Shown in pieces: positions 3,571 through 19,075 of a stretch of 64,000 nt of DNA; the stretch's first letter is position 1; every line of letters begins with the position of its first letter. The notes under the pieces are model-generated. The model was not told the origin of the DNA and made no database searches. It worked only from the letters and a program-made list of their open reading frames with translations. The translations under genes were made by a program, and so were the position numbers. The stretch spans positions 2,660,501 to 2,724,500 of the forward strand of contig NZ_JAUSZH010000001.1 in NCBI RefSeq assembly GCF_030817355.1. The letters run 5' to 3'. The stretch comes from Streptomyces sp. V1I1 (GTDB taxonomy: Bacteria; Actinomycetota; Actinomycetes; Streptomycetales; Streptomycetaceae).

Positions 3571-4647
3571 TTACAGGTCGTGGCCCAGGCCCGGACCCAC
3601 CGGTACGTCCACCCACCCCGTCTCCGCCGTCGCCGCGAACGCCGTCGGCGCCAGTGGTTCCGTATACACCAGCAGCGGGCCCACCAGGTCCGCCGGGACC
3701 GTGGCGTGCGGCAGGGCGGCCGTCAGATGGGCCGCGGCCAGGGTGGCGACGCCCAGCTCCGGCATGGTGCCGATCTTCACGGCGAGGCCCGCGGACTCGG
3801 CGAGCGCTGCGATCTGCCGGGCCCTGTACAGCCCGCCTACCTTGAGGATCTTGATGTTGAGGACATCGGCCGCCCCTCGGCGGACGATCTCCAGGGCGTC
3901 GTGCAGCGAGTGCACGCTCTCGTCGGCCATGACGCGCGCGCCGCCGCGGCTGCGCAGCTCGGCCATGCCGGTCAAGTCCCAGCGGGGCAGCGGCTGTTCA
4001 ATAAGGTCGAGCCCGGCGTCGGCGAGCCGGGCGACGGTCCGGCCCGCGATGCCGGGGTCGTAGCCCTCGTTCGCGTCGAGGCTGAGCTCCACGAAGTCCG
4101 GCACGGCACCGCGCACGGAATGGACCAGCCGCACATCCAGTTCCGGGTCCTCACCGCCCTTCACCTTGATGTGGGTGAAGCCGCGTGCGGCGTACGCGGC
4201 CGCCTCCTCAACCATCTCCTCGACCGTCCCGAGACCGACCACCCAGGTGGTGGGGATGCGCGGGCGGACACAGCCGCCGAGCAGCAGATGCACGGGCCAG
4301 CCCGCCGCCCGCGCCGCCACGTCGTGCAGCGCGATGTCCAGCGCCGCCTTGGCCAGCTGCTGGCCACGGATGGCAGCGTCCATGGCCGCGTGCGCTCCCG
4401 CCAGGTCGCGGGCGTCGCGGCCGATCAGCGCGGGGGCGGCGTGTTCGGTGAGCGCCGCCTCGAGGCCGGCGAGGGTCTCGCCGGTGTACGCGGTCATCGG
4501 GGAGGCCTCGCCGAAGCCGGTATCGCCGTCTGCCGTGCGTACTTCGACGACCAGGCTGACGAGTTCGGGGCTGCTTCCACTGCTGATGACGAAGGGCCGC
4601 CGGTAAGGGGCCCTGACAACGCGGGTGTGGACCGAGACGATCTTCAA
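3571..4647 (-). CDS. Enolase-superfamily enzyme, MLE / dipeptide-epimerase subgroup
   Basis: A 358-residue (beta/alpha)8-barrel enzyme. The Mg ligands are Asp191 (DANEG), Glu217 (EQPLP) and Asp242 (ADES). The catalytic lysines are Lys161 and Lys163 (KVKGG) on one face and Lys266 (NIKILK) on the other. This two-lysine arrangement marks the muconate lactonizing subgroup: dipeptide epimerases, N-succinylamino-acid racemases, o-succinylbenzoate synthase and cycloisomerases. Sugar-acid dehydratases use other residues. The start is TTG 4647, with AAGGAG six bases upstream. It follows the regulator gene after only 42 bases, and that gap contains an exact copy of the cluster operator. I infer a racemase or epimerase step in the pathway of region 2; the substrate is unknown. 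Confidence 0.9.
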   Translation of the reverse strand: MKIVSVHTRVVRAPYRRPFVISSGSSPELVSLVVEVRTADGDTGFGEASPMTAYTGETLAGLEAALTEHAAPALIGRDARDLAGAHAAMDAAIRGQQLAKAALDIALHDVAARAAGWPVHLLLGGCVRPRIPTTWVVGLGTVEEMVEEAAAYAARGFTHIKVKGGEDPELDVRLVHSVRGAVPDFVELSLDANEGYDPGIAGRTVARLADAGLDLIEQPLPRWDLTGMAELRSRGGARVMADESVHSLHDALEIVRRGAADVLNIKILKVGGLYRARQIAALAESAGLAVKIGTMPELGVATLAAAHLTAALPHATVPADLVGPLLVYTEPLAPTAFAATAETGWVDVPVGPGLGHDL

Positions 4648-4663
4648 GCACGGCTCCTTCGAG

Positions 4664-4681
4664 TTACGGCCCGGACCGTAA
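4664..4681. promoter_or_regulatory. Cluster operator site A
   Basis: TTACGGCCCGGACCGTAA, an 18-bp near-perfect palindrome with half-sites TTACGG/CCGTAA separated by six bases. It sits 17 bases before the enolase-like start, between that gene and the stop of the regulator. The identical 18-mer occurs at 9997-10014. Confidence 0.85.
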
Positions 4682-4689
4682 GGGCGGGC

Positions 4690-5928
4690 TTAGAGGCGTA
4701 CGCGGTAGACGATCGGCGGGCGGCCGGTCTGGCCCAGCTGCCGACTGCCCGTCGGTACGGCCACCCCAGCCCGTTCCAGTCGCTTGAGGATGCGGCGGGC
4801 CGTGCGCTGCTGGACGGCGAGGTGCTCCGCCACGCGGTGCGCGGTGATGCCCTCGTCCTGCTCCTGAGCGGCCAGTTCACGCAGCCGGTCCAGCGTCTTG
4901 GGGTTCAGTCCGACGCGGCGGGCGAGCGTGACCGTGCTCTCCGGCCCGGCCGCCGCCGCGGACAGCGTGGACGCGGAGCGTTCCGCGTCGATCACGATGT
5001 CGACGTCGTCGGTCATCGAGACGACTCCGGCCACCGGGCCCACCGATCGGGCCCTGTTGACCGCGCGTCTGGCCAGCGATTCGGCCTCCGCGGCAGTGCG
5101 GCCGAGGCCGAAGCCCACATGAGCGGCGCCGTGCCGGGCCGCGAGGTCGTCGAGGAACGGGAGGCGGGTGAACTGCCCGCTCACCTCCTCCAGGACGCCC
5201 CGGGTGGTGACGACCAGACGCTGCCCGTCCGCCAGATCGGCGAGGCTGCCGCCCAGCACTCGAAGATCCGCGGCCAGTTCACTGTCGGCCGCCGGAAGAT
5301 CGATGATGCCGAGGGCGACCTGGGCGTCGCCGCTGTGCTGTCCCGCGGTGGCGAGCACAAGGGCCTGGAGCGTGGAGCGTATGGAGTGCCGGGACGGCGC
5401 GAGACGTACGGCGTGCATCTCGTGGTCGAGGAGATGGAACGCCGAGCCGAGACAGGTGAGGGCAACCCGCGTCTGCTTCCTGTCCCGCGCGGCGAGATGG
5501 AACTCCGCCAGGTCCTGCGAGGTCAGCCCGGGCCGGTAGGGCAGTACATGCACATGGTCGGTGGGCAGCTTGGCCTCGGTGAGCGTCTCCATCACCTCGC
5601 TGCGGCGCAGCGTGTCGATGGAGATACGGGAGACGTCGTGGCCGAGGCGGAGCAGTTCGACCAGGGCACGCAGCAGAGTCGCGCCGCTGTACGGCACATA
5701 CATCGCGGGCCGGTCGACGATTCCGGCGGCGGTGGCGAGCGTGTGCGGTACTACGCCAGTGAAGAGCAGCGCGTCCACCTCGGCCTGCGCCCTGCCGACC
5801 ACGTCGAGGGTCTCGTCCTCGTGCCGGTACGGGAGGGGCACCAGCCGGTCCGCCCCGGCCGAGCCGCCGACCGCGACCACCTTGTGCACGAGGTCCTCGG
5901 GACCGATGACGCCGACCGTGAGAGCCAT
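4690..5928 (-). CDS. Fused sensor / degenerate GGDEF-like / winged-helix regulator
   Basis: A 412-residue cytosolic protein with three apparent parts. Residues 1-190 look like the PrpR_N or Asp/Glu-racemase type of ligand-binding fold. Residues 200-310 resemble a degenerate nucleotide-cyclase/GGDEF-like domain (FGLGRTAAEAESLARRA resembles its G.G.T..EA motif) with no GGDEF active site. Residues 320-412 form a winged helix (AHRVAEHLAVQQRTARRIL). It has no transmembrane segment. ATG 5928 is preceded by GGAG at eight bases. It is divergent from the aminotransferase operon and probably cotranscribed with the enolase-like gene. As the only DNA-binding protein in the cluster, it is the likely ligand of the five operator copies. 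The domain calls are by eye and the family name is uncertain. Confidence 0.75.
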   Translation of the reverse strand: MALTVGVIGPEDLVHKVVAVGGSAGADRLVPLPYRHEDETLDVVGRAQAEVDALLFTGVVPHTLATAAGIVDRPAMYVPYSGATLLRALVELLRLGHDVSRISIDTLRRSEVMETLTEAKLPTDHVHVLPYRPGLTSQDLAEFHLAARDRKQTRVALTCLGSAFHLLDHEMHAVRLAPSRHSIRSTLQALVLATAGQHSGDAQVALGIIDLPAADSELAADLRVLGGSLADLADGQRLVVTTRGVLEEVSGQFTRLPFLDDLAARHGAAHVGFGLGRTAAEAESLARRAVNRARSVGPVAGVVSMTDDVDIVIDAERSASTLSAAAAGPESTVTLARRVGLNPKTLDRLRELAAQEQDEGITAHRVAEHLAVQQRTARRILKRLERAGVAVPTGSRQLGQTGRPPIVYRVRL

Positions 5929-6004
5929 CGGCCGGTCTCCGTTCTTCTGGAGTGGTTCTGGGGTACTTCTGGACGGGGTTGACGCCCGACAACCGCGGCT
6001 TTAA

Positions 6005-6022
6005 TTTCGGCCCAGGCCATAA
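6005..6022. promoter_or_regulatory. Cluster operator site B
   Basis: TTTCGGCCCAGGCCATAA fits the same TTWCGG-N6-CCGWAA plan with one changed base in the right half-site. It lies in the divergent spacer, 30 bases before the aminotransferase start and 76 bases before the regulator start, so it may serve both, including autoregulation. Confidence 0.75.
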
Positions 6023-6052
6023 CCGCATTCTTGCGGAGAGGATAGTGCCCCG

Positions 6053-7234
6053 ATGCCCGAACGGGAAATGCCGCTGCCCACAGTTCTCGGCCCGCGCGGC
6101 CGCACCTTCGGTGAGGAGGAACGGGCCGCGGTGCTGCGCGTCCTGGACTCCGCGGTGCTGTGCAGCGCCTTCGGCAGTGAAGCACGTTCCCTTGAAGCCG
6201 AGATGACGCGGTTGTACTCCGGCGGGTCCCGCGGGTCCGGCCCGTCCCGCCCGTCCCGCCCGTCCCGCGGGGAAACGGTCGCCTGCAGTTCGGGTACGGC
6301 CTCGCTGCATCTGGCGGTCGCGGCGGCCGGGGTCGGCCCGGGCGACGAGGTGATCACCACGCCGCTCTCGGACTTCGGCACGGTGGCGCCGGTCGTCGCG
6401 CAGGGCGGCCGGGTGGTGTTCGCCGACGTACGCCCCGAGGACGGGAACATCGACCCCGGCGCCGTCGAGGCGGCGCTCACCCCGCGTACCAAGGCCGTCA
6501 TCGCCGTGCACCTCTTCGGCGCCGCCGCCGACGTCGACGCGCTGCGCGCCATCTGCGACCGGCACGGACTCGTATTCATCGAGGACTGCGCGCAGGCCTG
6601 GCTCGGTGAGGACAGCACCGGCCGGCTGCTCGGCACGGTCGGGGACATCGCCTGCTTCAGCCTTCAGCAGTACAAGCACATCACCGCGGGCGACGGCGGC
6701 CTCGCGCTCACCGACGACCCCGGGCTCGCTCGCCATATGCGGCTGTTCATGGACAAGGGATGGGACCGCACGGAGGGCCGGATCCACCGCGAGATGGGCC
6801 TCAACTACCGGATGACCGAGCTCACCGCGGCGGTGGCCCGCGCGCAGCTGGCCAAGGTGGCGGACGTCGTACGGGTGCGGCGGGAGCGGGCCGGGCAGCT
6901 CGTCGCCGCGCTCGCCGGGCTCGACCGGGTCACCGTGCCCGAGCCGTTGCCGGGCCACGCTTGGTGGCTCTTCCCGCTGCTCGTCGACGACAACACCCGC
7001 TGGGCGAAGGACCTTCAGGCCGAGGGTGTCCCCACCATGCCGGGCTATCTCGAACGTCCGCTGTACGCCAATCCCGCCCTGCCGGGGTACCCGCCGGGGC
7101 TGTGTCCGCAGGCGGAGCAGCTGATCGGCCGGACCCTGCTCGCCCTCCCCTGGAACGAGGGATACACCGAGGCGGACGTGGAGCACATCGCCCGCGCGAT
7201 CCACACCGTCCACGACCGGGCCCACGCACGGTGA
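6053..7234 (+). CDS. DegT/DnrJ/EryC1-type PLP aminotransferase (set A)
   Basis: A 393-residue sugar-aminotransferase-like enzyme, fold type I. The Schiff-base lysine is Lys208 (QQYKHITAGDGG), and the pyridoxal-nitrogen aspartate is Asp178 (FIEDCAQ). Family members transaminate keto-sugars or keto-cyclitols, usually with Glu or Gln as donor. An insertion of Gly, Ser, Arg and Pro at residues 56-73, encoded by 9-bp tandem repeats, breaks the usual N-terminal alignment. GGAGAGGA lies about ten bases before ATG 6053. It opens a three-gene operon, and its stop overlaps the next start (GTGA). A second member of the same family is encoded at 11020-12162. Confidence 0.9.
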   Translation: MPEREMPLPTVLGPRGRTFGEEERAAVLRVLDSAVLCSAFGSEARSLEAEMTRLYSGGSRGSGPSRPSRPSRGETVACSSGTASLHLAVAAAGVGPGDEVITTPLSDFGTVAPVVAQGGRVVFADVRPEDGNIDPGAVEAALTPRTKAVIAVHLFGAAADVDALRAICDRHGLVFIEDCAQAWLGEDSTGRLLGTVGDIACFSLQQYKHITAGDGGLALTDDPGLARHMRLFMDKGWDRTEGRIHREMGLNYRMTELTAAVARAQLAKVADVVRVRRERAGQLVAALAGLDRVTVPEPLPGHAWWLFPLLVDDNTRWAKDLQAEGVPTMPGYLERPLYANPALPGYPPGLCPQAEQLIGRTLLALPWNEGYTEADVEHIARAIHTVHDRAHAR

Positions 7235-7983
7235 CCGCGGTGACCGACTACGACTGGCTGCGGACCGCGCCCGAGGAGCTCATCGGCTGGGACGTCGACG
7301 TGCTGTACGGCCCGTGGCCCAGGCACCACGCCGACATCGGCCTCGCCGAGGTCAGGTCCCGCCTTGCCCGCTCCCCCGTCTCCAGAGCGCTGGCCATGTC
7401 GACGCGGGGAGCGCTCTTCGACGACGCGGCGGGCAACATCCGTACGGTCAAGGACCTAGCCGACTGCCCCGAGCTGCTGCCGGTCGGCACCGTGGATCTG
7501 CGGGACGCGCTCGCCGCCGACGATCGTCTTGACGCCCTGGACGCGGAGGGTGTGCGCTTCCTGCGGCTGTTCACCGAGCAGCAGGACGTGGAACCGGACT
7601 TCCCCGGCTACCGGCATGTGATCGGGCAGGCCGTCGCACGCGGTCTGGTCCTTCTGCACGACGGCGACCCGCGCCACTACGGGCCGGTGCTCGCAGGGCG
7701 CGGCGCGGACGTCGTCTTCCTCGACGTGCACTCGTATGTGCTGGCCGACTTCCTGCTCCTCGCCCGGAGCGAACCGGGTTTCCGGGCCACCACCCGGCTG
7801 CTCTCCGCCCCCGACGCGATCGAGCGGGTCGTCGACACGGCCGGCGCGCGCCATCTGGTCTTCGGCTCGCGCACCCCCTTCATGGACATCTCCCCGCAGA
7901 CGCTGCGGCTGCGCTACGCGGGCATCGGGGAGGCCGAGCGCGCGGCGATCGCGGGCGGGAACGTCGAGGAGCTGCTGGGCTGA
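7231..7983 (+). CDS. Amidohydrolase-like protein lacking metal ligands (set A)
   Basis: This 250-residue protein looks like the TIM-barrel amidohydrolase encoded next to it. The N-terminal strand reads DVDVLYGPWP where its neighbour has DVHAHVGPWP, so the HxH metal motif is lost (Asp-Val-Leu). Near the end it has FGSRTPF where the neighbour has FGTDS, so the catalytic Asp is Arg. The C-terminus keeps the family's characteristic AAIAGGNVEELLG. I infer a catalytically dead partner or regulatory subunit of the canonical amidohydrolase that follows. The GTG at 7231 overlaps the aminotransferase stop, and its own stop overlaps the next ATG (TGATG), which favours coupled, equimolar synthesis. Confidence 0.75.
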   Translation: MTAVTDYDWLRTAPEELIGWDVDVLYGPWPRHHADIGLAEVRSRLARSPVSRALAMSTRGALFDDAAGNIRTVKDLADCPELLPVGTVDLRDALAADDRLDALDAEGVRFLRLFTEQQDVEPDFPGYRHVIGQAVARGLVLLHDGDPRHYGPVLAGRGADVVFLDVHSYVLADFLLLARSEPGFRATTRLLSAPDAIERVVDTAGARHLVFGSRTPFMDISPQTLRLRYAGIGEAERAAIAGGNVEELLG

Positions 7984-8744
7984 TGCCGATCATCGATGTG
8001 CATGCGCATGTGGGCCCGTGGCCGTTCCACATGGACACGGGCGACGCGGCGTTCAACATCCGCCTGATGGACAAGTACGGCATCGGTCTGCAGCTGGTGT
8101 CGGCCGCCGAGGCGGTGGTGTACGACGCCGTGGCGGGCAACGCCGCGCTGCGCGAGGTGCTGGCCGTGCACCCGCGGCTGCTCGGCTACGCGGTGGTGAA
8201 CCCGAACCGTATCGAGGAGAGCGCCGAGGATCTGCGGCGCTGTCTGGACACCGGCCGGTTCGTCGGCGCGAAGATTCACACCCACTATCCGGGGCGGCTC
8301 ATCGGCACCCGGGAGATGGCCGAGGCCTTGGACGTCGTCGACGAGGCGGGGGTGCCGCTGCTTCTGCACACCTGGGGGCCGGAGGTCGCCTTGCTGCCCG
8401 AACTGCTGGAGAGCCGGCCGCGGCTGCGGATCATCATGGGCCACGCGGGCGGCGACGCCTGGCGCGAGGCCGCGCACGCGGCGGCGGCGTGCGACCGGCT
8501 CTACCTCGAACACTGCCGTACGGTCACGGACGCCGGCCGAATCGACTACGCGCGGGCGGCGGGGGTGCCGGTGGAGCGGCTGCTGTTCGGGACGGACTCG
8601 ACGCTGATCGACCCGTCGGTGGCGCTGGGGGTGGTCCGGGATGCGGGCTTTACGTTTGAGGAGCTGGAGGGGGTGTTGTGGCGGAACGCGGTGGGGCTGT
8701 TCGGCTTGGAGGGGGTTCTTTCCCCTACCCGCCCCTTCCCGTAA
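7983..8744 (+). CDS. Amidohydrolase (amidohydrolase_2 type), set A
   Basis: A 253-residue metal-dependent hydrolase or decarboxylase with all expected residues: His7 and His9 (DVHAHV), the lysine region KIH at Lys97, His129 (LLLHT), His154 (MGHAGG) and Asp205 (FGTDS). Relatives include sugar lactonases, 2-pyrone-4,6-dicarboxylate lactonase and aromatic decarboxylases, so the substrate is open. ATG 7983 overlaps the upstream stop. The last codons (SPTRPFP) and the TAA stop lie inside the C-rich block of intergenic repeat copy 2, so the repeat appears to have supplied the C-terminus. It is the last gene of the set A operon. Confidence 0.88.
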   Translation: MPIIDVHAHVGPWPFHMDTGDAAFNIRLMDKYGIGLQLVSAAEAVVYDAVAGNAALREVLAVHPRLLGYAVVNPNRIEESAEDLRRCLDTGRFVGAKIHTHYPGRLIGTREMAEALDVVDEAGVPLLLHTWGPEVALLPELLESRPRLRIIMGHAGGDAWREAAHAAAACDRLYLEHCRTVTDAGRIDYARAAGVPVERLLFGTDSTLIDPSVALGVVRDAGFTFEELEGVLWRNAVGLFGLEGVLSPTRPFP

Positions 8745-8962
8745 CCGGGGCTCCGCCCCGGACCCCGTACGCCCTTCGGGCGTGTCCTCAATCTCCCCCA
8801 GACTTCGCCCGGGGAACCCCCGACGGGCTTCATTTCCGTCGGTCGGCTTGAAAGTTCAGGCCGACCGGCGGGAAATTCAAGCCCCGCCGGCGTTTGAGGC
8901 GCGGTCCCGGACGCGAAATTCAGCCCCGCCGGCGTTTGAGGCGCGGGGCCCGGGGCGGAGCC
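8724..8962. repeat. Intergenic repeat element, copy 2
   Basis: The same layout as copy 1: a C-rich block (CCCCTACCCGCCCCTTCCCG), a hairpin at 8745-8761 (CCGGGGC/GCCCCGG), a CGCCCTTCGGGCG block, CTCCCCCAGACTTCG, and then CCGGCGTTTGAGGCGCGG twice in direct repeat. It begins inside the last codons of the set A amidohydrolase and ends just beyond the stop of the convergent lyase gene. Confidence 0.7.
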
Positions 8963-8984
8963 ACGGTTCAGGTGGCCCCCCGGG

Positions 8985-9950
8985 TCAGGCCTCGTCCGGC
9001 TCCTTCGCCAGCTCCTCCAGGCAGTCCACCACCACCCGCCGCTCCCCCACACCCAACCCCGGCCCGTACGGATCACACGCCGCCGACTCCGGAAGCAGCC
9101 CCTCCCACACCGCCGCCCACAGCATCCGCTGCACATAGCCCTCGATGGGCGCCAGGAACGTCGCCTCCGCGAACCGGTCCAGGCGACCCGACGCGCGTAC
9201 GAAACCGGCGTGGTCGCCCGAGCGCCAGGCGTCCAGCACCGCGCTTGTCAGGCCGACCCGCGCCGCCGCGATGCCCACCAGTGCCGAGTCCGCGCCCCAC
9301 ATCAGGGACGGGCCGAACATCCGGTCCTCGCCGGTGACCACCAGCTTTCCGCTCTCCTCGGTCGCGCGGATCGCGTCCTGGCACTCCATCGCCCGGTCCA
9401 GGGTCGCGAGTTTGATCCCCGCGGCCGACGGCAGGGCCATCAGTCGGCGGATCAACGCCGGCGGATACGGATAGCCGCCCGCCTCGCCGTGCAGGAAGAA
9501 GCCGAGCACGGGCAGCCCGCTCTCCGCGGCCACGCTCTCGTGCAGCCGTACGGCCTCGTCGTCGTCCCCGTCGAGCTGCGCGAGCGGATAGACCATGACC
9601 GCGTCCGCACCGCCCTCCGCCGCCTGCACGGCCATGGCGACCGTGGCGGACACGGCCTCCTTCAGGGTCCTGGGGCGGACCGATCGTGGCACCCCCACGC
9701 CCGCCACGATCGGCCCTTCGACCGCCTCCCGCCAGATGCTCAGCACCTGCTGCCGGTCGGGTTCGGAGAGATGAAGACCGCGGCCCGTGTGGGCCCATAC
9801 CGCGACGCCGCCGATCCGCGCGGCCGCGATCCGCTCCGCGTATCCGCGCAGCGCGTCCAGGTCCACGACTCCCCGGGGATCCATGGGTGTGGCCACCGCG
9901 GGCAGTACGGCACCGCGCAGCCTGCGCACCAGGTTCTCCGTCGCAGACAT
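8985..9950 (-). CDS. DHDPS/NAL-family lyase-like protein
   Basis: A 321-residue class I aldolase-type barrel related to dihydrodipicolinate synthase, N-acetylneuraminate lyase and keto-deoxy-sugar-acid aldolases. The Schiff-base lysine is Lys180 (AGIKLATLD). Two family hallmarks differ. The GTTGE-like pyruvate-binding loop reads AHTGRG. The expected Tyr of the YxxP motif is missing, with FFLHGEAGG in that place (residues 151-159), so it may handle a different substrate or use another proton shuttle. It is transcribed leftward from ATG 9950, 46 bases from operator site C, divergent from the flavin oxidoreductase. Confidence 0.85.
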   Translation of the reverse strand: MSATENLVRRLRGAVLPAVATPMDPRGVVDLDALRGYAERIAAARIGGVAVWAHTGRGLHLSEPDRQQVLSIWREAVEGPIVAGVGVPRSVRPRTLKEAVSATVAMAVQAAEGGADAVMVYPLAQLDGDDDEAVRLHESVAAESGLPVLGFFLHGEAGGYPYPPALIRRLMALPSAAGIKLATLDRAMECQDAIRATEESGKLVVTGEDRMFGPSLMWGADSALVGIAAARVGLTSAVLDAWRSGDHAGFVRASGRLDRFAEATFLAPIEGYVQRMLWAAVWEGLLPESAACDPYGPGLGVGERRVVVDCLEELAKEPDEA

Positions 9951-9996
9951 GAGCGATCTCTCCCGTCTGTTGCGGTCGTTGTCGACACGCTAGCCT

Positions 9997-10014
9997 TTAC
10001 GGCCCGGACCGTAA
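9997..10014. promoter_or_regulatory. Cluster operator site C
   Basis: TTACGGCCCGGACCGTAA, identical to site A and embedded in a longer 24-bp near-palindrome at 9994-10017 (CCTTTACGG...CCGTAAAGG). It lies between the divergent lyase and flavin-oxidoreductase genes, 17 bases before the latter's ATG, and could control both. Confidence 0.88.
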
Positions 10015-10031
10015 AGGAAAGGCCAGCGAGA

Positions 10032-11030
10032 ATGCCCAAGCGCCCCATGCGTCTCGGCCTGTACGTCAATCTCTACGCGGACAAGGCCGACCGGCCCCGG
10101 CTCGCCGACGCGGTGGAGCAGGTGCTCCTGGCCGAACAGGCCGGATTCGACTGGGTGGTACTCGGCGAACGGCATCTGCACCGGCCCGGATACCACGAGG
10201 CCCTCACCTCACTGGCGTATCTCGCCGCGCACACCGAGCGGATCGGACTCGCGACGGCCGGGCTGATCGCGCCCGTCTACCAGCCGGTGTGGCTGGCCGA
10301 GACGCTCGCGCACATCGACGTACTGTCGGGAGGGCGGCTCACGGCGGGATTCGTACTGGGCTACCGGCCCGAGGAGTTCACTCTGTACGGCACCCAGCCG
10401 CGCGAGCGCGTGTCGCGCTTCGAGGAGTGCCTGGAGCTTGTCACCCGGCTGTGGACGGAGGACGAGGTCACCCACCACGGCCGCTGGACCTCGGTGGACG
10501 AGGCCTTCCTGTCGCCGCGTCCGGTGCAGTCCCCGCGCCCGCGGATCTGGAACGGCGGGCGGGTGTCGGCGGCGCTGGAGCGTACGGCCCGGATGTGCGA
10601 CGGCTGGACGACCTCCTTCAACGAACTCGACTCCGAACTCCCCGGAAAGATCGCGGAGTACCGCTCCTACCCGCGCGGCGCGGCGAGTCTGGGCGCGGAG
10701 GTCATCGTCTGCCGCGAGGGCTACGCCGCCACCACATCGAAGCAGGCACGGGTCGCCCTGGAGGGCCCGCTGCGCGGTCTGTACGACGCCTACGGCGACT
10801 GGAAGCGCACCTCCGCCGATGCCGCGCGCTACGCGCAGCAGTGGGACGACATCGAGGCGCGCTCCGTGATCGGCTCGGTGGACCAATGCGTCCAGCGTCT
10901 GGGGGCGTACGGCGAGATGGGCGCCGACGGCGTGGTGCTGCGTATCCAGCCGCCGGGCATGCCGCAGACGGACGCCCTGAGCGCGATCGAGGCGTTCGGG
11001 TCCGAGGTGCTGCCGCGTCTCAACGGCTGA
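10032..11030 (+). CDS. LLM-class flavin-dependent oxidoreductase
   Basis: A 332-residue luciferase-like TIM-barrel protein expected to use FMN or coenzyme F420. Family features include the N-terminal strand RLGLYVNLY, the AEQAGFDWVVLGERH segment, the LSGGRLTAGFVLGYRPEEF loop, and a C-terminal GADGVVLRI strand. Members oxidise, reduce or mono-oxygenate small molecules. The ATG at 10032 has only a modest AG-rich leader, which is also the operator flank. The 3' end overlaps the convergent aminotransferase gene by 11 bases. It is a single-gene unit under site C. Confidence 0.9.
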   Translation: MPKRPMRLGLYVNLYADKADRPRLADAVEQVLLAEQAGFDWVVLGERHLHRPGYHEALTSLAYLAAHTERIGLATAGLIAPVYQPVWLAETLAHIDVLSGGRLTAGFVLGYRPEEFTLYGTQPRERVSRFEECLELVTRLWTEDEVTHHGRWTSVDEAFLSPRPVQSPRPRIWNGGRVSAALERTARMCDGWTTSFNELDSELPGKIAEYRSYPRGAASLGAEVIVCREGYAATTSKQARVALEGPLRGLYDAYGDWKRTSADAARYAQQWDDIEARSVIGSVDQCVQRLGAYGEMGADGVVLRIQPPGMPQTDALSAIEAFGSEVLPRLNG

Positions 11031-12162
11031 ACGGGCGCTGCCGGAAAGCCTGCTGGACCAGGAGCGCGGCGCGGGCGATGTCCGCCATGGCTGCGTCGTC
11101 GGCCATCAGCATCGGCTGGCGCACCCAGACGACCGTGTCCTCGGCCGCCTCGGCGACCGGGCACGGCCCACCCCCGGTGCAGCGCTCGCGCGACAGGGAG
11201 CGGTAGCCGGCGTCCAGCGGGATGCCCTGAGCGGTCATGGCCTCCAGGAGCGCCGCCTTTGGGTGGCCGCCGAAGGCCGCCGGGGCATAACGGAGCATGG
11301 CCAGATGCCAGGTGTGCCGGGTGGTGCCGGCAGGGGGCCCGATCAGATCCAGGCCCTCGACCTCCTCCAGAGCCGCCTCCAGCGTCGCCGCCCGTGCCGC
11401 ACGGTGCGCCAACTGCTGTTCGAGCATGGACAGTTGGGGATGCAGCACAGCGGCCTGGAACTCCGTCATCCGCAGATTCCAGCCCAGTTCCGGGTGCTCG
11501 TACCAGCCCCCGTCCCGGCGGCGGCCGACGTTGTGCAGCGACCACAGCCGCTCGTACGTGCGCCGGTCGTCCGTCACCACGATGCCGCCTTCCCCGGCGG
11601 TCATCGCCTTGCTGGACTGGAAACTGAAACAGCCCGCGACCCCGAGGCTCCCGGCCGCCCGTCCGTGCCGCCGCGCACCGTGCGCCTGGGCCGCGTCCTC
11701 CACCACCGGGATGCCCCAGGAGCGCAGCGCCTCGGTGTCGGCAGGCGCGCCCGCCAGATGCACCGGCATGACGGCACGGGTCCGTGGTCCCACGAGCCGC
11801 CGCGCCGCCGCCGGATCCAGGTGCAGGGTCTCGGACAGTACGTCGGCGACAACGGGCCGGGCCCCCGTCAGCACCACCGCGGTGGCGCTGGCCACGAACG
11901 TATAGGCGGGCACGATCACTTCGTCACCCGGCCGCACGCCGAGCGCGCGCAGCGCCAGGAAGAGCGCCACTGTGCCATTGACCGTGCAGACGCCGTAAGA
12001 AGCGCCGACGCTCTCAGCAAAGGCCGCCGCGAAGGACTCGGTCTCGCTGCCCGCGGTCGCTCCCCACTCTCCGCTCTCCAGCACCCGCAGCAGCCGCTCG
12101 CGCTGCTCCTCGCCGGCCGGCGGCGGCCACTGCGGCCACCCTTCGGTGCGTACGGGCGTCAT
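11020..12162 (-). CDS. DegT/DnrJ/EryC1-type PLP aminotransferase (set B)
   Basis: A 380-residue aminotransferase of the same family as the one at 6053-7234, but divergent in sequence. The Schiff-base lysine is Lys185 (QSSKAMTAGEGG) and Asp156 (VVEDAAQAHG) holds the pyridine nitrogen. The start ATG at 12162 overlaps the TGA of the amidohydrolase gene before it (ATGA). It is the sixth and last gene of the leftward importer operon. The upstream amidohydrolase is frameshifted, and the N-terminal frame of that gene runs open, in register, straight into this one, so a 636-residue fusion is possible from the frameshifted message. Confidence 0.9.
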   Translation of the reverse strand: MTPVRTEGWPQWPPPAGEEQRERLLRVLESGEWGATAGSETESFAAAFAESVGASYGVCTVNGTVALFLALRALGVRPGDEVIVPAYTFVASATAVVLTGARPVVADVLSETLHLDPAAARRLVGPRTRAVMPVHLAGAPADTEALRSWGIPVVEDAAQAHGARRHGRAAGSLGVAGCFSFQSSKAMTAGEGGIVVTDDRRTYERLWSLHNVGRRRDGGWYEHPELGWNLRMTEFQAAVLHPQLSMLEQQLAHRAARAATLEAALEEVEGLDLIGPPAGTTRHTWHLAMLRYAPAAFGGHPKAALLEAMTAQGIPLDAGYRSLSRERCTGGGPCPVAEAAEDTVVWVRQPMLMADDAAMADIARAALLVQQAFRQRPFSR

Positions 12163-12930
12163 CTCAGGCCCTTCAGCAGGCGGTCCATGGTGCCGTGCAG
12201 AATCTGCGCCCGGTTGGCCTCGTCGAGGCCGGCGAGCAGTACGCGCCCGAGTCCCACCCGCAGATCGAGGAAGACGGCGTCGGAGCCGAAGGCGATGCGC
12301 TCGGCCCCGGTCTCGGCGACCAGCCGCAGAAGATGGCGGGCGGTCATCCGGGAGCCGCAGGTCTCCAGGACCAGATTGGGGCAGCGGGCCGCGGCTTCCG
12401 CGGCGGGTGCGAAGCCGCTGGTCCACAGGCCCGAGTGGCCCATCAGAAGCGGCAGTTCCGGGTAGCGGGGGGCCACGGCCGAAAAGCGCACCGGCTCGGA
12501 GAAGGGCGGATGCCTGCTGGCTGTGCGCGAGCACGATGCGGCCGCGGTCGGCGGCGATGTCGAAAGCCTGGGTGTAGGCGCGGTGGTCGAGCGGGAGTTC
12601 GTGGACTTCGGGGTGGAGCTTGACCCCGATGACGCCGGGCACGTCCATCAGGTCGCGCAGCCGGGCCGGTGCCTCGGGATCGTGCGGGTTGAAGACGGCG
12701 TAACCGAGGAGGCGTCCGGGGTGCTGTGCGAGCTCGGTGAGCAGCAGGGCGTTTCCGGCGCGGGCGTCGGGGCCGACGGCGAGCAGATGCGAGACACAGG
12801 CGGTGGCGACGCCGCACCGGTCCATGACCTCGACGAGGCTGCGGGCGGAGCCGTCCGGGATGGCGAAGTCGGACCAGCGCCCAAGATGGCCATGGGCGTC
12901 GATGACAGTCCGGTCGTCGATGACGCTCAC
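12159..12930 (-). pseudogene. Amidohydrolase, set B, interrupted by a one-base frameshift
   Basis: The first half, from ATG 12930, carries the metal motif His13 and His15 (DAHGHLGRW), GVKLHP and VLAHS. The second half, with LLMGHSG, the FGSD aspartate and an ordinary C-terminus, lies in the next frame. The switch falls near 12513, where the reading after CAGCAG needs one G removed to continue as HPPFSEPVRF. With that correction the product would be 256 residues, normal for the family. Both halves keep every catalytic residue, so the lesion is recent, a sequencing error, or a recoding site. ATGA overlaps join it to both neighbours. It is the canonical partner of the ligand-less protein at 12927-13646. 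Confidence 0.8.
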
Positions 12931-13646
12931 GGGTCTTCGCCTTCGCCCAGCAGCCGCATGGCGTTGCCGCCCGCGATCAGGGCCGTTTCGGCGTCCGGCA
13001 GGCCCAGGGTGTCAAGCTGGTAGCGGGGTCCGGCGTCGTCGGTGACGGGCGCGCCCGTGCCGAACAGGACGCGGCGGGCTCCGTACCGTCCGGCGAACCA
13101 CTCGACCTGGAGATGTCCGGCGAGCGTCGAGGTGTCCACGTACAACTCCACGTGCGAGTCCATGAGCTCGGCGAGCTCTCGCAGGCTGCGGTAACCGGTG
13201 CCGGTGAGGATGATCCGCAGGGTCGGCAGGGCGCTCGCCAGTTGATGGATCTCGGCGGCGGTCACGGTCTCCCAGCCGAGCAGGGCGGTGGTGCGCGTCT
13301 TCGCCAGCGCGGCGGCGAGGGCGAGTGCGTGCCCGCAGGTGAGGGACCAGCGGTGTTCGCCGGGGCACAGCCGCACCAGCCGGGCGCCGCCCTGCCCTTG
13401 TGGTGTGCCGAGCGGTCCGGGAATCAGCACCGGCACCGGGCGCAGCCGTACGCCGTCGGCCTCCTCGACGGCCGTGAGCGATTCGTTGCCGTCGCGCGGG
13501 TCGCCGTACACGGCATGCGTGTGGACCACGCAGGCGCTGTCGATGCGCAGCCGGTCGAGTTCGCCGACGAGCCCGGCCGGGTCCCGGCTCACCACCTCGT
13601 CGTACGGCAGCGGGCCGAGCAGCCGGTTGATGTCGACGACGGTCAT
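12927..13646 (-). CDS. Amidohydrolase-like protein lacking metal ligands (set B)
   Basis: A 239-residue barrel protein related to the amidohydrolase that follows it. At the first strand it reads DINRLLGPLP, with Asn and Leu in place of the HxH histidines. At the end it has FGTG where active members have FGTD or FGSD. The C-terminus ETALIAGGNAMRLLG is the family signature and matches the set A counterpart. I infer a non-catalytic partner. ATG 13646 overlaps the permease stop, and its TGA overlaps the next ATG, placing it mid-operon between importer and enzymes. Confidence 0.75.
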   Translation of the reverse strand: MTVVDINRLLGPLPYDEVVSRDPAGLVGELDRLRIDSACVVHTHAVYGDPRDGNESLTAVEEADGVRLRPVPVLIPGPLGTPQGQGGARLVRLCPGEHRWSLTCGHALALAAALAKTRTTALLGWETVTAAEIHQLASALPTLRIILTGTGYRSLRELAELMDSHVELYVDTSTLAGHLQVEWFAGRYGARRVLFGTGAPVTDDAGPRYQLDTLGLPDAETALIAGGNAMRLLGEGEDP

Positions 13647-14446
13647 GTCTTGAGGCCGGTGGTGGCGATCGAGTCGGTCAGATACCGCTGCAGCAGTCCG
13701 AAGACGAGCAGACAGGGGATCACGGTGATGGTGGCCCCGGCCATGATCTGGTTGACCGCGACGTTCTCACCTTCGAGGGTGGCGAGGCCGACCGTGAGCG
13801 TGCGCATCTCGGCGGACTGGCCGATGACGAGCGGCCACAGGAAGTCGTTCCAGTGCCAGAGGAAGACGAAGACGCCGAGGGTCGCCAGGACCGGCCGGAT
13901 CAGCGGGATGACGATCGTGGTGTAGATGCGCCACTCCGAGGCGCCGTCGATCTTCGCGGCCTCGAAGAGTTCGTCGGGCAGCTGCTGGATGAACTGCCGC
14001 ATGAGGAAGACCGCCTGGGAGTTGGCGAGCGTAGGCACGATCAGTCCCCAGTACGTGTCGACGCCGCCAAGCTCCGAGACGAGGATGTAGTACGGGATGA
14101 GGGTGGCCTGGAAGGGCACCATCAGGGTCGCCAGGAACGACCAGAACAGCACCTCGCGGCCCGGGAACCGCTTCTTCGCGAAGGCGTATCCGGCCATGGA
14201 GGAGAACAGCAGGATGAGCGCGACGGAGACCACCGAGTAGATCAGTGAGTTGACCGCCCAGCGCATGATGTCCGCGCTGCTGAGGACGTCGGAGAAGTTC
14301 TGCCAGGTGGCCCGGGTCAGGTCGAACGCGCCCGGCAGCGTCTGCCCGCCGGGCGGCGCGAAGGCGACGAGCACCATCACCACGAAGGGGATGACGGTCA
14401 CGAGCGCCACCAGGACCAGCAGGACGGGCAGTCGCAGCCGCGCCAT
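13643..14446 (-). CDS. Carbohydrate ABC transporter permease (MalG type)
   Basis: A 267-residue inner-membrane protein with about six transmembrane helices, the first at residues 5-27. The cytoplasmic loop that contacts the ATPase is the EAAxIDGAsxwxi motif, here FEAAKIDGASEWRIY. The C-terminal LLQRYLTDSIATTGLKT ending is typical of CUT1-family permeases. It pairs with the permease encoded just upstream, and the genes overlap by one base (TGATG). No ATPase gene occurs in the cluster; in Streptomyces the shared ATPase MsiK serves many such importers. Confidence 0.93.
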   Translation of the reverse strand: MARLRLPVLLVLVALVTVIPFVVMVLVAFAPPGGQTLPGAFDLTRATWQNFSDVLSSADIMRWAVNSLIYSVVSVALILLFSSMAGYAFAKKRFPGREVLFWSFLATLMVPFQATLIPYYILVSELGGVDTYWGLIVPTLANSQAVFLMRQFIQQLPDELFEAAKIDGASEWRIYTTIVIPLIRPVLATLGVFVFLWHWNDFLWPLVIGQSAEMRTLTVGLATLEGENVAVNQIMAGATITVIPCLLVFGLLQRYLTDSIATTGLKT

Positions 14447-15396
14447 CAGTCCGCCTCCCTTCCGATGAGCCGTCGCTGGATGAGCGAGAAGATCAGTACG
14501 ACGAGGAAGAGCACCAGGCCGATCGCGCTCGCGTAGCCGAAGTCGAAGAACTTGAAGCCGGAGTCGTAGAGGAAGTAGACGAGCGAATAACTGGAGCGCA
14601 CGGGTCCGCCGGCCGTCATCACATACATCTGGTCGAAGACCTGGAAGGAGCCGATGGCCTCGATGACGAGGACGAAGAACAGCACCGGCCGCAGCAGCGG
14701 AAGAGTCACCCAACGGAACCGCTGCCAGCCGTTCGCCCCGTCGATGGTGGCCGCCTCGATGACGTGCTGCGGGATCGACTGGAGTCCGGCCAGCAGGATC
14801 AGCATCGAGTAGCCGAAGCCCTTCCACGCGGAGGTGACGGCGATGGAGGGCAGGACGAGGTGCTCGTTGCCGAGGAAGTCGACGGGGCCGAGGGAGATGA
14901 CGCCGAGCGCGGCATTGAGCAGGCCGTCCTGGACCTCGTAGATCCACTTCCAGATGACGGCGGCCAGCACGATGCTGGTGACGTACGGCAGGAAGAACAC
15001 CCCGCGGAAGAACCCGCGCGCCCAGACGGTGCGGTGCAGCAGCAGGGCCGTGCCCAGGGAGAGCAGGACGGTCAGCGGCACGAAGAACGCGGTGTACAGG
15101 GCGGTGACGCCGAGGCTGGACCAGAACAGGTCGTCGTCGAGGAGACGGGTGTAGTTCTCGGCCCCGATGAACTGCCATTCGCCGTTCAGCCGGTAGTCGG
15201 TGAGCGAGAGGAACGCGGCGCCGATGGCCGGTCCGAAGCGGAAGACGATGAACAGCAGCAGCATCGGGGCCACGAAGAGGAGGCCGACGCGGGCCTCGCG
15301 CCGTCGTACGGCCCTGCTGAAGGAGCTCCTGCCGGGCGAGTCCTTGGGGGGAGGGACCTCGCCCGGGGAGATCTTGGTCAGGGACGTCTGACTCAA
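14446..15396 (-). CDS. Carbohydrate ABC transporter permease (MalF type)
   Basis: A 316-residue permease with a charged cytoplasmic N-terminus of about 40 residues and six predicted helices. The EAA loop reads VIEAATIDGANGWQRF, the ATPase-coupling motif of CUT1 importers. The start ATG overlaps the stop of the binding-protein gene (ATGA), so translation is coupled. With the next permease it forms the membrane channel of the cluster's importer. Confidence 0.93.
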   Translation of the reverse strand: MSQTSLTKISPGEVPPPKDSPGRSSFSRAVRRREARVGLLFVAPMLLLFIVFRFGPAIGAAFLSLTDYRLNGEWQFIGAENYTRLLDDDLFWSSLGVTALYTAFFVPLTVLLSLGTALLLHRTVWARGFFRGVFFLPYVTSIVLAAVIWKWIYEVQDGLLNAALGVISLGPVDFLGNEHLVLPSIAVTSAWKGFGYSMLILLAGLQSIPQHVIEAATIDGANGWQRFRWVTLPLLRPVLFFVLVIEAIGSFQVFDQMYVMTAGGPVRSSYSLVYFLYDSGFKFFDFGYASAIGLVLFLVVLIFSLIQRRLIGREAD

Positions 15397-16649
15397 CGCT
15401 GCCGCGCCAGGAGGTCGTCGGCCTGCTCGGCCGCCGCGTCGAGGGCTTCCTTGGGGCTCTTCTTACCGGTCAGCGCGGCCTGGATCTCGGGCGCGATCAG
15501 CGACATCAGCTGACGTGCGGTGGGGTTGGGCTCACCGGGGTAGGCGTTGGCGAGCGCCTCCTGGAACTCCTTCGCGTACGGGGCGTCGCTCGGGACAGTG
15601 ACGTCCGTACGCGGCGAGAGGAAGCCGCTTGCCTTGCCCATGCTCTGGAGCTGTTCCGGCTTCGTCATGAAGGCGAGGAACTTCTCCGACCCGGAGACGT
15701 TCTTGGACTTGGCGTTGATGCCGAGCCCGCCGGGGATGCCGAAGGTCACCTGCTTGGCCCCGGTGAGCGGCGGGCCGACGACGACGTTTTCAGCGCCCCA
15801 GGCCTGGGCCGCGGTCGCGGCGTCCGCGGGGGTGTTGGAGAAGCCCATCGCCGCCTGCTGCTTGCCCAGCGCCTGGTCGGCGACGACGTTGGCGTTGGTC
15901 AGGGCGGACTTGGGGATCGCGCCGGATTTGTACAGTTCGGTGACGAAGGTGAGGGCCGCGACGCCCTCCGGCCCGTTGAAGGCGACCTTCTTGCCGTCGT
16001 CGGCGAAGACCTTTCCGCCCGCCTGCCAGAGCAGGGGATAGAAGTTGAGGTTCTGCGTCGCTTCGTTGCCCGCGGAGTAGTCGAGGGCCGCGGCGCCCGC
16101 CTGCTTCAGTTTGGGGGCGGCCGCCTTGATCTCGTCCCAGGTGGCCGGGGGCTTGCTGATGCCCGCCTGGTCCAGCAACTTCTTGTTGTAGAGCGTGGTG
16201 GTGACGGTGTGGTAGATCGGCGCCGCGTATACCTTGCCGTCCTGCTTCATGGCTTCGAGTGCGGCCGGCAGGAACTTGTCCTCGGTGCCCTTGAGCGCCC
16301 CGTCGACCGGCCTGATGGCTCCATTACTCAGATACTGCGGGATCTGGTCGGGGCCGAGCAGCACGACGTCCGGGCCCTTGCCGCTGCTGAACGCGGTGGC
16401 GAGCTTCTCGTCGCGGTTCTCCCACGGCTGCTGCTCCACGGTGAGCTGCACGCCGGGCTCGGCCTTGGCGAAGTCCTTCTCGATCTGTGTCCAGTAGGCG
16501 GAGTTGGCCTTGGGGTCGGCGATCACCGGGTACATCCAGACGGTGACCTTCTTCGACCCCGAGCTGCTGTCGCCGCCGCACCCGGCGATCAGGGCGGCGA
16601 GCGTGAACAACGCGAGTGGTGCGGCGGCGCGCTTGAAGCCTGTCTTCAT
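15393..16649 (-). CDS. Extracellular solute-binding lipoprotein of a sugar ABC importer
   Basis: A 418-residue family 1 binding protein. A signal peptide ends in the lipobox LIAGC with the lipidated Cys24, followed by a Gly/Ser linker. The mature part shows the usual two-lobed binding-protein features (VWMYPVIAD, GPDVVLLGPDQIPQYL, DYSAGNEATQNLNFYPLLWQ split across both lobes). It captures the substrate outside the membrane for the two permeases. GGAGG precedes the ATG by five bases. It is the first gene of a six-gene operon that ends with the set B aminotransferase, and operator site D lies 45 bases upstream. The specificity cannot be told from sequence alone. Confidence 0.93.
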   Translation of the reverse strand: MKTGFKRAAAPLALFTLAALIAGCGGDSSSGSKKVTVWMYPVIADPKANSAYWTQIEKDFAKAEPGVQLTVEQQPWENRDEKLATAFSSGKGPDVVLLGPDQIPQYLSNGAIRPVDGALKGTEDKFLPAALEAMKQDGKVYAAPIYHTVTTTLYNKKLLDQAGISKPPATWDEIKAAAPKLKQAGAAALDYSAGNEATQNLNFYPLLWQAGGKVFADDGKKVAFNGPEGVAALTFVTELYKSGAIPKSALTNANVVADQALGKQQAAMGFSNTPADAATAAQAWGAENVVVGPPLTGAKQVTFGIPGGLGINAKSKNVSGSEKFLAFMTKPEQLQSMGKASGFLSPRTDVTVPSDAPYAKEFQEALANAYPGEPNPTARQLMSLIAPEIQAALTGKKSPKEALDAAAEQADDLLARQR

Positions 16650-16684
16650 GGGGGCCTCCGGAAGGCCTGAGAAGGGGAGCCAGA

Positions 16685-16722
16685 GCCCGGCTAGTTTCGG
16701 CCTGGGCCGAAACTAGCCGGGC
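16685..16722. promoter_or_regulatory. Cluster operator site D in a 38-bp perfect inverted repeat
   Basis: The core at 16695-16712 is TTTCGGCCTGGGCCGAAA, again TTWCGG-N6-CCGWAA. Symmetry extends to perfect 18-bp arms around a 2-bp centre. It lies 45 bases before the binding-protein ATG. It could fold into a hairpin, but no gene ends here in the right direction and there is no U tract, so an operator fits better than a terminator. Confidence 0.82.
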
Positions 16723-16835
16723 GGTTTTGGCATGTCAATGCCTTGATGACGGGGGGTCAATGTCGCGAGGTCAGACCGGGGTTCAGATCTGGCGATCAGA
16801 TCGTGTGATCGGGCCGGGAGATCAGCGCCGGGAGA

Positions 16836-18872
16836 TCAGCGCCGCGGATCGACGACGAACAGCTCGGCGACACGGTTGAAGTACAACCGCCCATCCTGAT
16901 GCCCCGTCAGCCGCCGGTGCGGATACGCGACGACCAGCACCGGGTCACGGTGCGGGGCGAACGGATCGATGCGGTATATCAAGCCGCCGTCCACGCTCAC
17001 GTACAGCTTCGAGCGCGACACGACTATTGAGCCGCCGGTGCTCCTGGTGCCCAGCTCATAGCGGTGAACGATCTGCTGGCTCTGCCGGTCGACGGCGAAG
17101 AGCGTGTGCCCGGCGAGCCCCCACAGTTTCCGGTCGGGGCCGATGGCCAGCGCGCTGACCGTCCCCTCCGTGCTGACCGGCTCGAACTCCCAGAGCTTCT
17201 GGCCGCGGTCCACGTCCCAGGCGAAGACCGCGCCCGCCTTCCTGGTGGGCGGCGTGGTGCTGAGCCCGCCGGTCACGGACCCGCCGCCGTAGACCACACC
17301 GTCATACGCGGCGAGCGCGAAGAGGCTCTGGTCCTGTGAGACATTGCGGGTGAACTCCCAGTCTCGGGACGACGGGTCGTAGATGGCGAGCCCGCCGCCG
17401 AGCCGGTCGCCGGACGGGACGGTGCCCACGGCGATCTTTCCGTCCTCCGCCTCGACGAGGCATTTGCTGCGGGCCTGCAGCTGTGGCCCCAGGTTGAAGA
17501 TCAGCTCGGGGTTGGGGGTGGTCCCCGGCGGGCCGCCGGGTGAGTACTCGGGGCTGTTCCAGGGCTTGTCGGGCCGGTAGCGGTAGAGCCTGGACTCGGG
17601 GTAGACGCCGAGCCAGACCGAGCCGTCCGAGGACTGAAGGATCGATTCGATCTGCGCGAAGCGGTGGAACGACGAGGCCCCGGTGTCCGTACGGACCGCG
17701 CCCAGGCCGCCGTTGAGGAACCCGCCGACGTAGACGGTTCTGCGCCCGCCCCCGGTCACCGCCAGGATCTCTATGGGCTCCTTGCGGACCTTGGTCTCCA
17801 CGATCGCGTGCGCCCCGGTGGTGGGGTTGTAGCGGAACATCTCGCCGCGCCAGAGCGTGCCGACGACGCTGCGCCCCGGATAGTCCGCGACGCCCATCTC
17901 GGCCCAGCCGATGGACCGGGTGTTCTGCACCTTGCCGGTGAGCGTGAGGCCGGTGCCTGTGAGCTGTTTGGTGGCCGGGTCGTAGCGGCGCAGTTCGCCC
18001 CGCTGGATGAGGTGGATGCCGCCGCCGGAGTCGGGCGGGGCGATCTTCAGGCCGTGTGCGTCGGGGATCTCATCGGTCCAGGCGCGCGCGGCGAGGTCGT
18101 AGACGAAGAGCGGACTCGGCAGATCGGACCCGATCCGCGCGTACAGCCGTCCGCCGAAAGCGTCCAGGTCGTACACGGCCTTGCCCTCTATGGTGCTGAG
18201 GCCGGGCGGCTTGGGGAGTTCGGTGACCGAGCCGGTCGCCGGGTCCAGCTCGGCGATGTGTGCCGCGGCGTACGAGCCGGAGTAGACCTTGCCGCCGGCG
18301 CAGGCGATGCTCCGTACGTAAGTCTGACCCGCGACCACCTGTCCGAAGTTGGTGTACTCCTTGGTCACCGGGTCGAAGCGGAAGACCTTTCCGCCGGGGA
18401 AGGTGCCGCCCCAGATCTTGCCGTCGGCGTCGGAGGTCAGCGACCAGATGAAGGTCTGCGCGGCGAGCGGCAGGCCGAGGTCCTCGGCGACGTCGCCGGC
18501 GCCGGGCCGCCAGCGGTAGAGATGAGCGTTGCCGTAGGTCCCGGCGTACACCCCGTCGGGCGCGGCGGCGACGGCCCAGGAGCCGTCGGCTCCGGTGAGG
18601 GGCGCGCTGACCAGCTGTTCTCCGGTGGCCGGGTCGATGGCGTTGAGATAGGCGGGCTTGCCCGTCGACACGTTCCACAGGGCCGGTTTGCCGCCCGGCC
18701 CCGGAGCGACCGTGCCGCCCAGAAGCAGGACGTCGGCGAGCGGTACACCCAGCGATACGGGGTCGCGCATCAGCGCCTCCTCGGCGGACGCGGTGCTCGG
18801 AGCTGCTAACGACAGTACAGAGGCGGACAGTGCTGCGGTCGAGCCGGCGAGAAACGCTCGTCGCGTCGTCAC
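16836..18872 (-). CDS. Secreted Tat-dependent beta-propeller protein
   Basis: A 678-residue protein with a twin-arginine signal (TTRRAFLAG, hydrophobic core to about residue 25, then ASA). The rest is a series of beta-propeller blades of WD40/PQQ/YVTN type, with repeated phrases such as DGKIWGGTFPGGKVFRFDP, DGSVWLGVYPESRLYRYRP and DRKLWGLAGHTLFAVD. No catalytic motif is evident, so ligand binding or a lyase-like role are both open. The GTG at 18872 has GGAGG about nine bases upstream. It is monocistronic, with operator site E 29 bases before the start, so it belongs to the same regulon as the importer; it may handle the substrate outside the cell. Confidence 0.8.
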   Translation of the reverse strand: MTTRRAFLAGSTAALSASVLSLAAPSTASAEEALMRDPVSLGVPLADVLLLGGTVAPGPGGKPALWNVSTGKPAYLNAIDPATGEQLVSAPLTGADGSWAVAAAPDGVYAGTYGNAHLYRWRPGAGDVAEDLGLPLAAQTFIWSLTSDADGKIWGGTFPGGKVFRFDPVTKEYTNFGQVVAGQTYVRSIACAGGKVYSGSYAAAHIAELDPATGSVTELPKPPGLSTIEGKAVYDLDAFGGRLYARIGSDLPSPLFVYDLAARAWTDEIPDAHGLKIAPPDSGGGIHLIQRGELRRYDPATKQLTGTGLTLTGKVQNTRSIGWAEMGVADYPGRSVVGTLWRGEMFRYNPTTGAHAIVETKVRKEPIEILAVTGGGRRTVYVGGFLNGGLGAVRTDTGASSFHRFAQIESILQSSDGSVWLGVYPESRLYRYRPDKPWNSPEYSPGGPPGTTPNPELIFNLGPQLQARSKCLVEAEDGKIAVGTVPSGDRLGGGLAIYDPSSRDWEFTRNVSQDQSLFALAAYDGVVYGGGSVTGGLSTTPPTRKAGAVFAWDVDRGQKLWEFEPVSTEGTVSALAIGPDRKLWGLAGHTLFAVDRQSQQIVHRYELGTRSTGGSIVVSRSKLYVSVDGGLIYRIDPFAPHRDPVLVVAYPHRRLTGHQDGRLYFNRVAELFVVDPRR

Positions 18873-18901
18873 AGGGGTAACACCTCCGAAAGGAACGGGA
18901 G

Positions 18902-18919
18902 TTACGGCACTAGCCGAAA
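18902..18919. promoter_or_regulatory. Cluster operator site E
   Basis: TTACGGCACTAGCCGAAA keeps both half-sites, one of the TTACGG type and one of the TTTCGG type, at the same 6-bp spacing but with an unrelated centre. It lies 29 bases before the start of the secreted propeller gene. The conserved halves with a changed core argue that the halves are what the protein reads. Confidence 0.75.
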
Positions 18920-19075
18920 GTGATACGCCACGCCCCGTGGGGCGTCAACGGCGCCGACCGAGCGGGTCCGGGACAGCACTCCAACGGGCCCACGTCATGG
19001 CCATTCAGCTCCATCCACCGGACAGCGGGCGCGCCCGGTGCCGGCGGCGCGGCGGGCCTGCGTGAGACTGATGGT

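Follow-up and report, generated by a model that had tools for sequence, protein, structure and literature searches.

Within a 64,000-nucleotide stretch of contig NZ_JAUSZH010000001.1 (positions 2,660,501 to 2,724,500; hereafter the window), Streptomyces sp. V1I1 carries a putative carbohydrate-type uptake and catabolic gene cluster. Here we report that a shared 18-bp palindrome lies ahead of each of its transcription units from 3571 to 18872, beyond chance, and that these sites are probably the operators of a regulator encoded in the same cluster, a protein of 412 residues (4690–5928, minus strand).

Operator 1 (4664–4681) lies 16 nucleotides (nt) upstream of ENO (3571–4647, minus strand), which begins with TTG and encodes an MLE-subgroup-like enzyme of the MR_MLE family, nearest to the muconate cycloisomerase and dipeptide epimerase types. 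Operator 2 (6005–6022) occupies the divergent promoter region of the regulator gene (76 nt from its start codon) and DegT1 (30 nt; 6053–7234, plus strand), a DegT/DnrJ/EryC1/StrS aminotransferase nearest to sugar aminotransferases such as perosamine synthetase. DegT1 is followed on the plus strand by AH1 (7231–7983), an amidohydrolase-like pseudoenzyme that has lost its metal motifs, and AH2 (7983–8744), a PF04909 amidohydrolase that has kept them. Operator 3 (9997–10014) is shared by a second divergent pair, a DapA-like protein distantly belonging to the DHDPS family (8985–9950, minus strand; 46 nt) and the luciferase-like oxidoreductase LLM (10032–11030, plus strand; 17 nt), whose best NCBIfam model is the F420-dependent TIGR03619, just below its cut-off. 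Operator 4 (16695–16712) stands 45 nt ahead of a minus-strand operon led by SBP (15393–16649), a carbohydrate-type solute-binding protein of the maltose/trehalose type. The operon continues with P1 (14446–15396), a membrane protein and, judging from its position, a putative second ABC permease (homologues lie between SBP and P2 in relatives), then P2 (13643–14446), an ABC permease by Pfam, AH4 (12927–13646), an amidohydrolase-like pseudoenzyme by its sequence motifs, AH3 (12159–12930), an amidohydrolase with metal motifs kept and a reading-frame shift inside the gene in the window, and DegT2 (11020–12162), a DegT-family aminotransferase by Pfam and sequence comparison. Operator 5 (18902–18919) is 29 nt ahead of PROP (16836–18872, minus strand), a secreted beta-propeller protein by sequence and model. 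All five operators have homologous sites in relatives.

An earlier note on this DNA had described five copies of TTWCGG-N6-CCGWAA at 17 to 76 bases before start codons, covering every transcription unit from the enolase-like gene to the secreted propeller. The coverage and the upstream placement stand, with measured gaps of 16 to 76 nt, and the copies at 4664 and 9997 are, as stated there, the same 18-mer. Four copies are exact matches to TTWCGGNNNNNNCCGWAA (operators 1, 3, 4 and 5; none in 100 dinucleotide shuffles), but operator 2 reads TTTCGGCCCAGGCCATAA and has one mismatch. Allowing up to two mismatches, the window holds eight matches against 2.3 expected, and the remaining three (11258, 54838 and 61343) carry two mismatches each. 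Four of the six exact sites in the whole 8.3-Mb genome fall inside the cluster, and the two outside it (C1:1031216 and C1:1637381) deviate from the refined centre described below. At up to one mismatch the genome gives 20 sites and the reversed pattern 18, which is background level and leaves the one-mismatch motif powerless genome-wide; our genome-wide claims are therefore based on exact or refined patterns. Operator 4 also lies within a longer dyad spanning some 38 nt (roughly 16685–16722), and in some Streptomyces relatives the arms flanking the operator look self-complementary although their bases differ.

The motif, derived from the window alone, was then applied out of sample. We aligned 25 regulator homologues and took 54 regulator loci, 1,020,409 bases in total, from named genomes of Streptomyces, Actinacidiphila, Kribbella, Actinomadura, Murinocardiopsis and Jiangella and from metagenome-assembled genomes (MAGs) of Actinophytocola and Isoptericola. 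At up to one mismatch these loci contain 161 sites, while the reversed pattern gives none and about two would be expected from the background of about 2 per Mb in the V1I1 genome. Homologues of the cluster genes were mapped by tblastn: 116 of the 161 sites lie no more than 260 nt upstream of one of their starts, and at least one site so placed is present in 52 of the 54 loci. Six or more named genera carry the motif at homologous promoters, including, in relatives, that of the regulator itself. Phylogenetic footprinting had been proposed as a check on the operator, and here it shows the site retained ahead of orthologous genes across genera.

The placed instances also sharpen the operator. Together the 54 loci, the window and a further Streptomyces genome, G047, provide 127 of them, amounting to 53 distinct 18-mers. 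Position 8 is C (and position 11 G by symmetry) in 93% of these, both orientations counted, and position 7 is a pyrimidine (C or T) in 87%; the search pattern biases the outer twelve positions and leaves the inner six free. Given these base preferences at inner positions 7, 8 and 11, the consensus is TTWCGGYC-NN-GRCCGWAA. The half-sites are kept, as the earlier note held, but the centre it took to vary is mostly conserved. The refined pattern TTWCGGYCNNGRCCGWAA has three matches in the V1I1 genome, every one in the cluster, and misses the sites at 6005 and 18902. The centre of operator 5, CACTAG, is off consensus, and the identical 18-mer recurs in five further loci (L047, L052, L060, L082 and L115).

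At this density the sites accompany the regulator. A full-length regulator occurs in four of 150 Streptomyces genomes, V1I1 itself, G006, G034 and G047, which hold 3, 2, 3 and 3 refined sites respectively; eight of the other 146 genomes have the refined pattern, with nine sites in total, and the reversed control yields none among the matches listed. At least two refined sites are thus found in all four regulator genomes versus one of the 146 others (G139). With V1I1 excluded, the probability that the three remaining regulator genomes all fall among the four others with two or more sites is p = 7e-06. G006 and G034 are by coordinates also among the 54 loci (L077 and L049), so that G047 alone is fully held out. 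In these counts only full-length proteins were taken as the regulator: 90 of the 150 genomes match it at E ≤0.001, and apart from the four orthologues and a relative in G008 the match is mainly to its winged helix. Around the refined sites in regulator-less genomes, the surrounding stretches that were fetched contain no cluster homologue at E ≤1e-6.

When 19 regulator-bearing genomes were searched whole with TTWCGGNCNNGNCCGWAA, 45 sites were found (none with the reversed pattern), 41 of them no farther than about 21 kb from a regulator gene by coordinate comparison. Three of the four sites on other contigs lie 16 nt before the SBP homologue of a separate SBP-AH4-AH3-DegT2 set (G155), ahead of a distant propeller paralogue (G158), and in a stretch holding DapA, SBP and propeller relatives (G166). 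G047 has a split cluster: the regulator, ENO, DegT1, AH1 and AH2 lie at 3.54 Mb, and PROP, SBP, P1, P2, AH4, AH3, DegT2, LLM and DapA lie at 4.84–4.85 Mb, 1.3 Mb away. Both halves bear sites, the distant one having further sites in addition to its three refined ones; the motif therefore follows the target genes and not the neighbourhood. The earlier note's claim of a local regulon read by the 4690–5928 protein accordingly gains support from footprint and co-occurrence, but "local" is too narrow, since remote paralogous operons in some genomes carry the site. In the distant half of G047 (locus L115) we also noted a refined-type site (14076–14093) flanked by the 3' ends of DegT2 and LLM, and an operator 24 nt ahead of a 350-residue gene without a Pfam match (4649–5743), divergent from PROP.

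The system is rare and patchy. In a phylum-wide sample the regulator was found at E ≤1e-20 in one of 396 genomes, that of V1I1, from which we take the family to be rare. Second regulators about 47% identical to the first occur in L085, L086, L087, L054 (2983–4194) and L089 with similar palindromes, and TTACAGCCATGACCGTAA precedes DegT-AH-AH in L086 and L087; these sequences suggest paralogous sister regulons.

The winged helix that the earlier note assigned to the 4690–5928 protein is borne out by sequence and fold, and is the sole part that Pfam recognises. In the structure model it forms residues 328–412, preceded by what is predicted to be a PrpR_N-fold sensor (1–198) and a cyclase/GGDEF-like palm (about 180–317). 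The 17 families listed for the protein at E ≤5 do not include the Pfam PrpR_N sequence profile, nor the PucR helix-turn-helix (HTH), GGDEF-like or LacI HTH families; the HTH-type families on that list are other HTH and winged-helix ones. When the regulator alignment was used as a profile against solved structures, nothing reached E ≤0.001; the best hit, 3cta at 0.011, covers the winged helix only. The recognition helix RTARR is kept in 55 of 57 aligned rows at identities down to 46% (two rows repeat genomes already counted). The exceptions are one row with RTARS and the G008 relative, about 26–27% identical, whose recognition helix differs and whose 7.1-kb contig has no operator site.

Promoter geometry suggests what the protein does at these sites. 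The DegT1 promoter (5979–6007, plus strand) consists of TTGACG (5979–5984), a 17-nt spacer and TAATTT (6002–6007), and overlaps operator 2; the SBP promoter (16710–16738, minus strand) has TTGACA (16733–16738), 17 nt and TAGTTT (16710–16715), and overlaps operator 4. In both, the operator's first three bases are also the final three of the -10 element. The PROP promoter (18920–18948, minus strand), with TTGACG (18943–18948), 17 nt and TATCAC (18920–18925), abuts operator 5. Among relatives, TTGAC precedes the operator by 26–28 nt in 25 of 33 unique DegT1 promoters, by 26–27 nt in 14 of 19 SBP promoters, by 22–23 nt in 16 of 29 ENO promoters and by 28–30 nt in 7 of 18 PROP promoters. Because the site so often overlaps or abuts a -35/-10 pair at DegT1, SBP, ENO and PROP, its placement fits a repressor, at least at those four promoters.

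Based on these observations, we consider it probable that the 4690–5928 protein is a one-component, autoregulated repressor acting on TTWCGGYC-NN-GRCCGWAA, that it controls the whole uptake and catabolic cluster and that a pathway metabolite releases it. Binding, dimerisation, repression, effector release and substrate class are here inferred. A dimer, suggested by the symmetry of the operator, would bind the palindrome through the C-terminal winged helices and would govern the regulator's own promoter together with all transcription units of the cluster. Where the operator lies on or against the -10 element, as at DegT1, SBP, ENO and PROP, the bound protein would block RNA polymerase, and a pathway metabolite held in the PrpR_N-fold domain, perhaps jointly with the palm domain, would release it.

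The same protein might instead act on the same sites as an activator or dual regulator that recruits or remodels polymerase with its effector. One site common to divergent promoters, at DapA/LLM and at regulator/DegT1, would suit such a protein, as would the lack of a fixed -35 element for LLM, DapA and the regulator gene, where TTGAC at distances like those above occurs in 0 of 38, 0 of 17 and 0 of 31 promoters. Activators seldom act from sites on or just downstream of the -10 element, however, which is where the site lies at DegT1, SBP, ENO and PROP, and we regard activation as unlikely. Still less probable is that a different transcription factor, encoded elsewhere, reads the sites and that the 4690–5928 protein is a mere neighbour. 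CGG/CCG palindromes occur with other regulator families too, and single refined sites are scattered over regulator-less genomes (8 of 146); yet the contrast at two or more sites (4/4 versus 1/146), the site in the regulator's own promoter in relatives and a recognition helix conserved where the site is present all point to this protein as the reader. That the palindromes work in RNA, as hairpins or terminators, or are some other kind of structural repeat seems highly improbable, even though the 16695 site is embedded in its longer dyad: the sites lie at gene starts rather than gene ends, their overlap with -10 elements leaves one arm untranscribed at those promoters, and across genera the constraint on inner bases and on W positions follows a single 18-bp frame.

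Several observations weigh against the autoregulated repressor or soften its support, beginning with the three promoters that lack the TTGAC spacing. The loci were selected for holding the regulator, and numerous Kribbella and Streptomyces loci are closely related and hence not independent; 45 of the 161 sites are unplaced relative to mapped starts, and L089 and L099 have no placed site at all. The peptide patterns used to find loci covered some of the recognition helix, whose constancy is therefore in part a product of that selection. The regulator model has a predicted TM-score (pTM) of 0.50, which makes the domain arrangement uncertain. In G047 the two sites of the regulator half each have one mismatch, and the whole-genome search of the Isoptericola MAG with the stricter pattern TTWCGGNCNNGNCCGWAA gave no site. 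The fourth of the sites on other contigs falls at an Nramp-like gene (G160:C19). In that Murinocardiopsis locus (L144) we observed an operator-like pair (9514–9531 and 9609–9626) before the Nramp-like transporter gene, with UPF0261 and PEP hydrolase-like genes adjoining. On the sequence evidence as a whole, the finding is genuine and, as a regulon, has good support.

The content of the cluster suggests catabolism of a sugar or amino-sugar-like compound, because it combines an importer, DegT transaminases, amidohydrolase pairs, a DapA-like protein, LLM, an MLE-type enzyme and a propeller. Its two amidohydrolase pairs (7231–8744 and 12159–13646) each consist of one metal-motif member and one conserved pseudoenzyme. 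AH1 is without HxH in all 21 aligned rows and ends in FGxR in all 30, and AH4 is without HxH in all 18 and has FGTG in all 19; AH2 retains HxH in all 34 rows and FG[TS]D in all 33, and AH3 retains HxH in all 33 and FG[ST]D in all 19. These counts omit rows that do not cover the motif, and at some loci the best match to AH2 or AH3 may in fact be the other paralogue. AH3 forms two open reading frames in the window and has both parts in one frame in the close relative L050, so the frame change is either a sequencing error or a real lesion. The PROP model (predicted local distance difference test score, pLDDT, 89.7) resembles propellers generally and is uninformative on function. Accessory genes near relatives' clusters (epimerases, GFO/IDH/MocA and SIS proteins, a BadF-type kinase, acetyl xylan esterase) are suggestive of sugars without singling out one substrate. 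Elsewhere in the window (332–2546), two divergent genes that by eye may be diiron-like (ferritin-like and AurF-like) adjoin a TetR-like gene.

LacI-type repressors provide pathway-specific, autoregulated control of sugar catabolic clusters through palindromes near the promoter. The regulator proposed here would resemble them in exerting local catabolic control from promoter palindromes, with an unrelated DNA-binding domain at the opposite end of the protein. Regulators with a PrpR_N sensor domain include PrpR, a sigma-54 activator that also has an AAA+ domain, and the NtrC-family regulator of PDB 2q5c; the fold of that sensor domain is also the one predicted for the 4690–5928 sensor. Unlike PrpR, however, the 4690–5928 protein continues from sensor to palm and winged helix, its sites are placed as for a repressor, and Pfam finds no AAA+ sigma-54 interaction domain in it, the remaining residues being modelled as palm and winged helix. 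The PucR-type regulator MabR (Rv2242), as described in PMC11617747, has a sensor, a degenerate GGDEF-like domain and a C-terminal HTH in that order, and to that extent the order predicted here, of sensor, possibly GGDEF-like palm and C-terminal DNA-binding part, would be the same. MabR differs in combining a non-haem globin sensor with a PucR-type HTH (PF13556), in place of a PrpR_N-fold sensor and a winged helix.

A pathway-specific one-component regulator is of a known kind, and the new parts are the domain layout and the pathway. Among the matches listed, our literature search showed nothing on this operator or domain layout, and within that scope the regulator family and operator appear undescribed; the search was partly broad, so absence from print is unproven. 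We would propose only tentatively that the 4690–5928 protein is the first example of a regulator family whose winged helix is gated jointly by a PrpR_N-type ligand sensor and a cyclase/GGDEF palm that has lost catalysis. Such a repressor would integrate the pathway metabolite with, possibly, a nucleotide signal, and would control an undescribed catabolic pathway of DegT transaminases and conserved active/pseudo-amidohydrolase pairs.

A regulator family named in databases merely as hypothetical, helix-turn-helix or ArsR-like thereby gains an 18-bp operator, a set of targets and a testable domain layout. The operator lets members of the pathway be recognised in other genomes even when they lie apart, as in G047 and G155, and it offers a direct route to the inducer, and hence to the substrate of an undescribed catabolic cluster.

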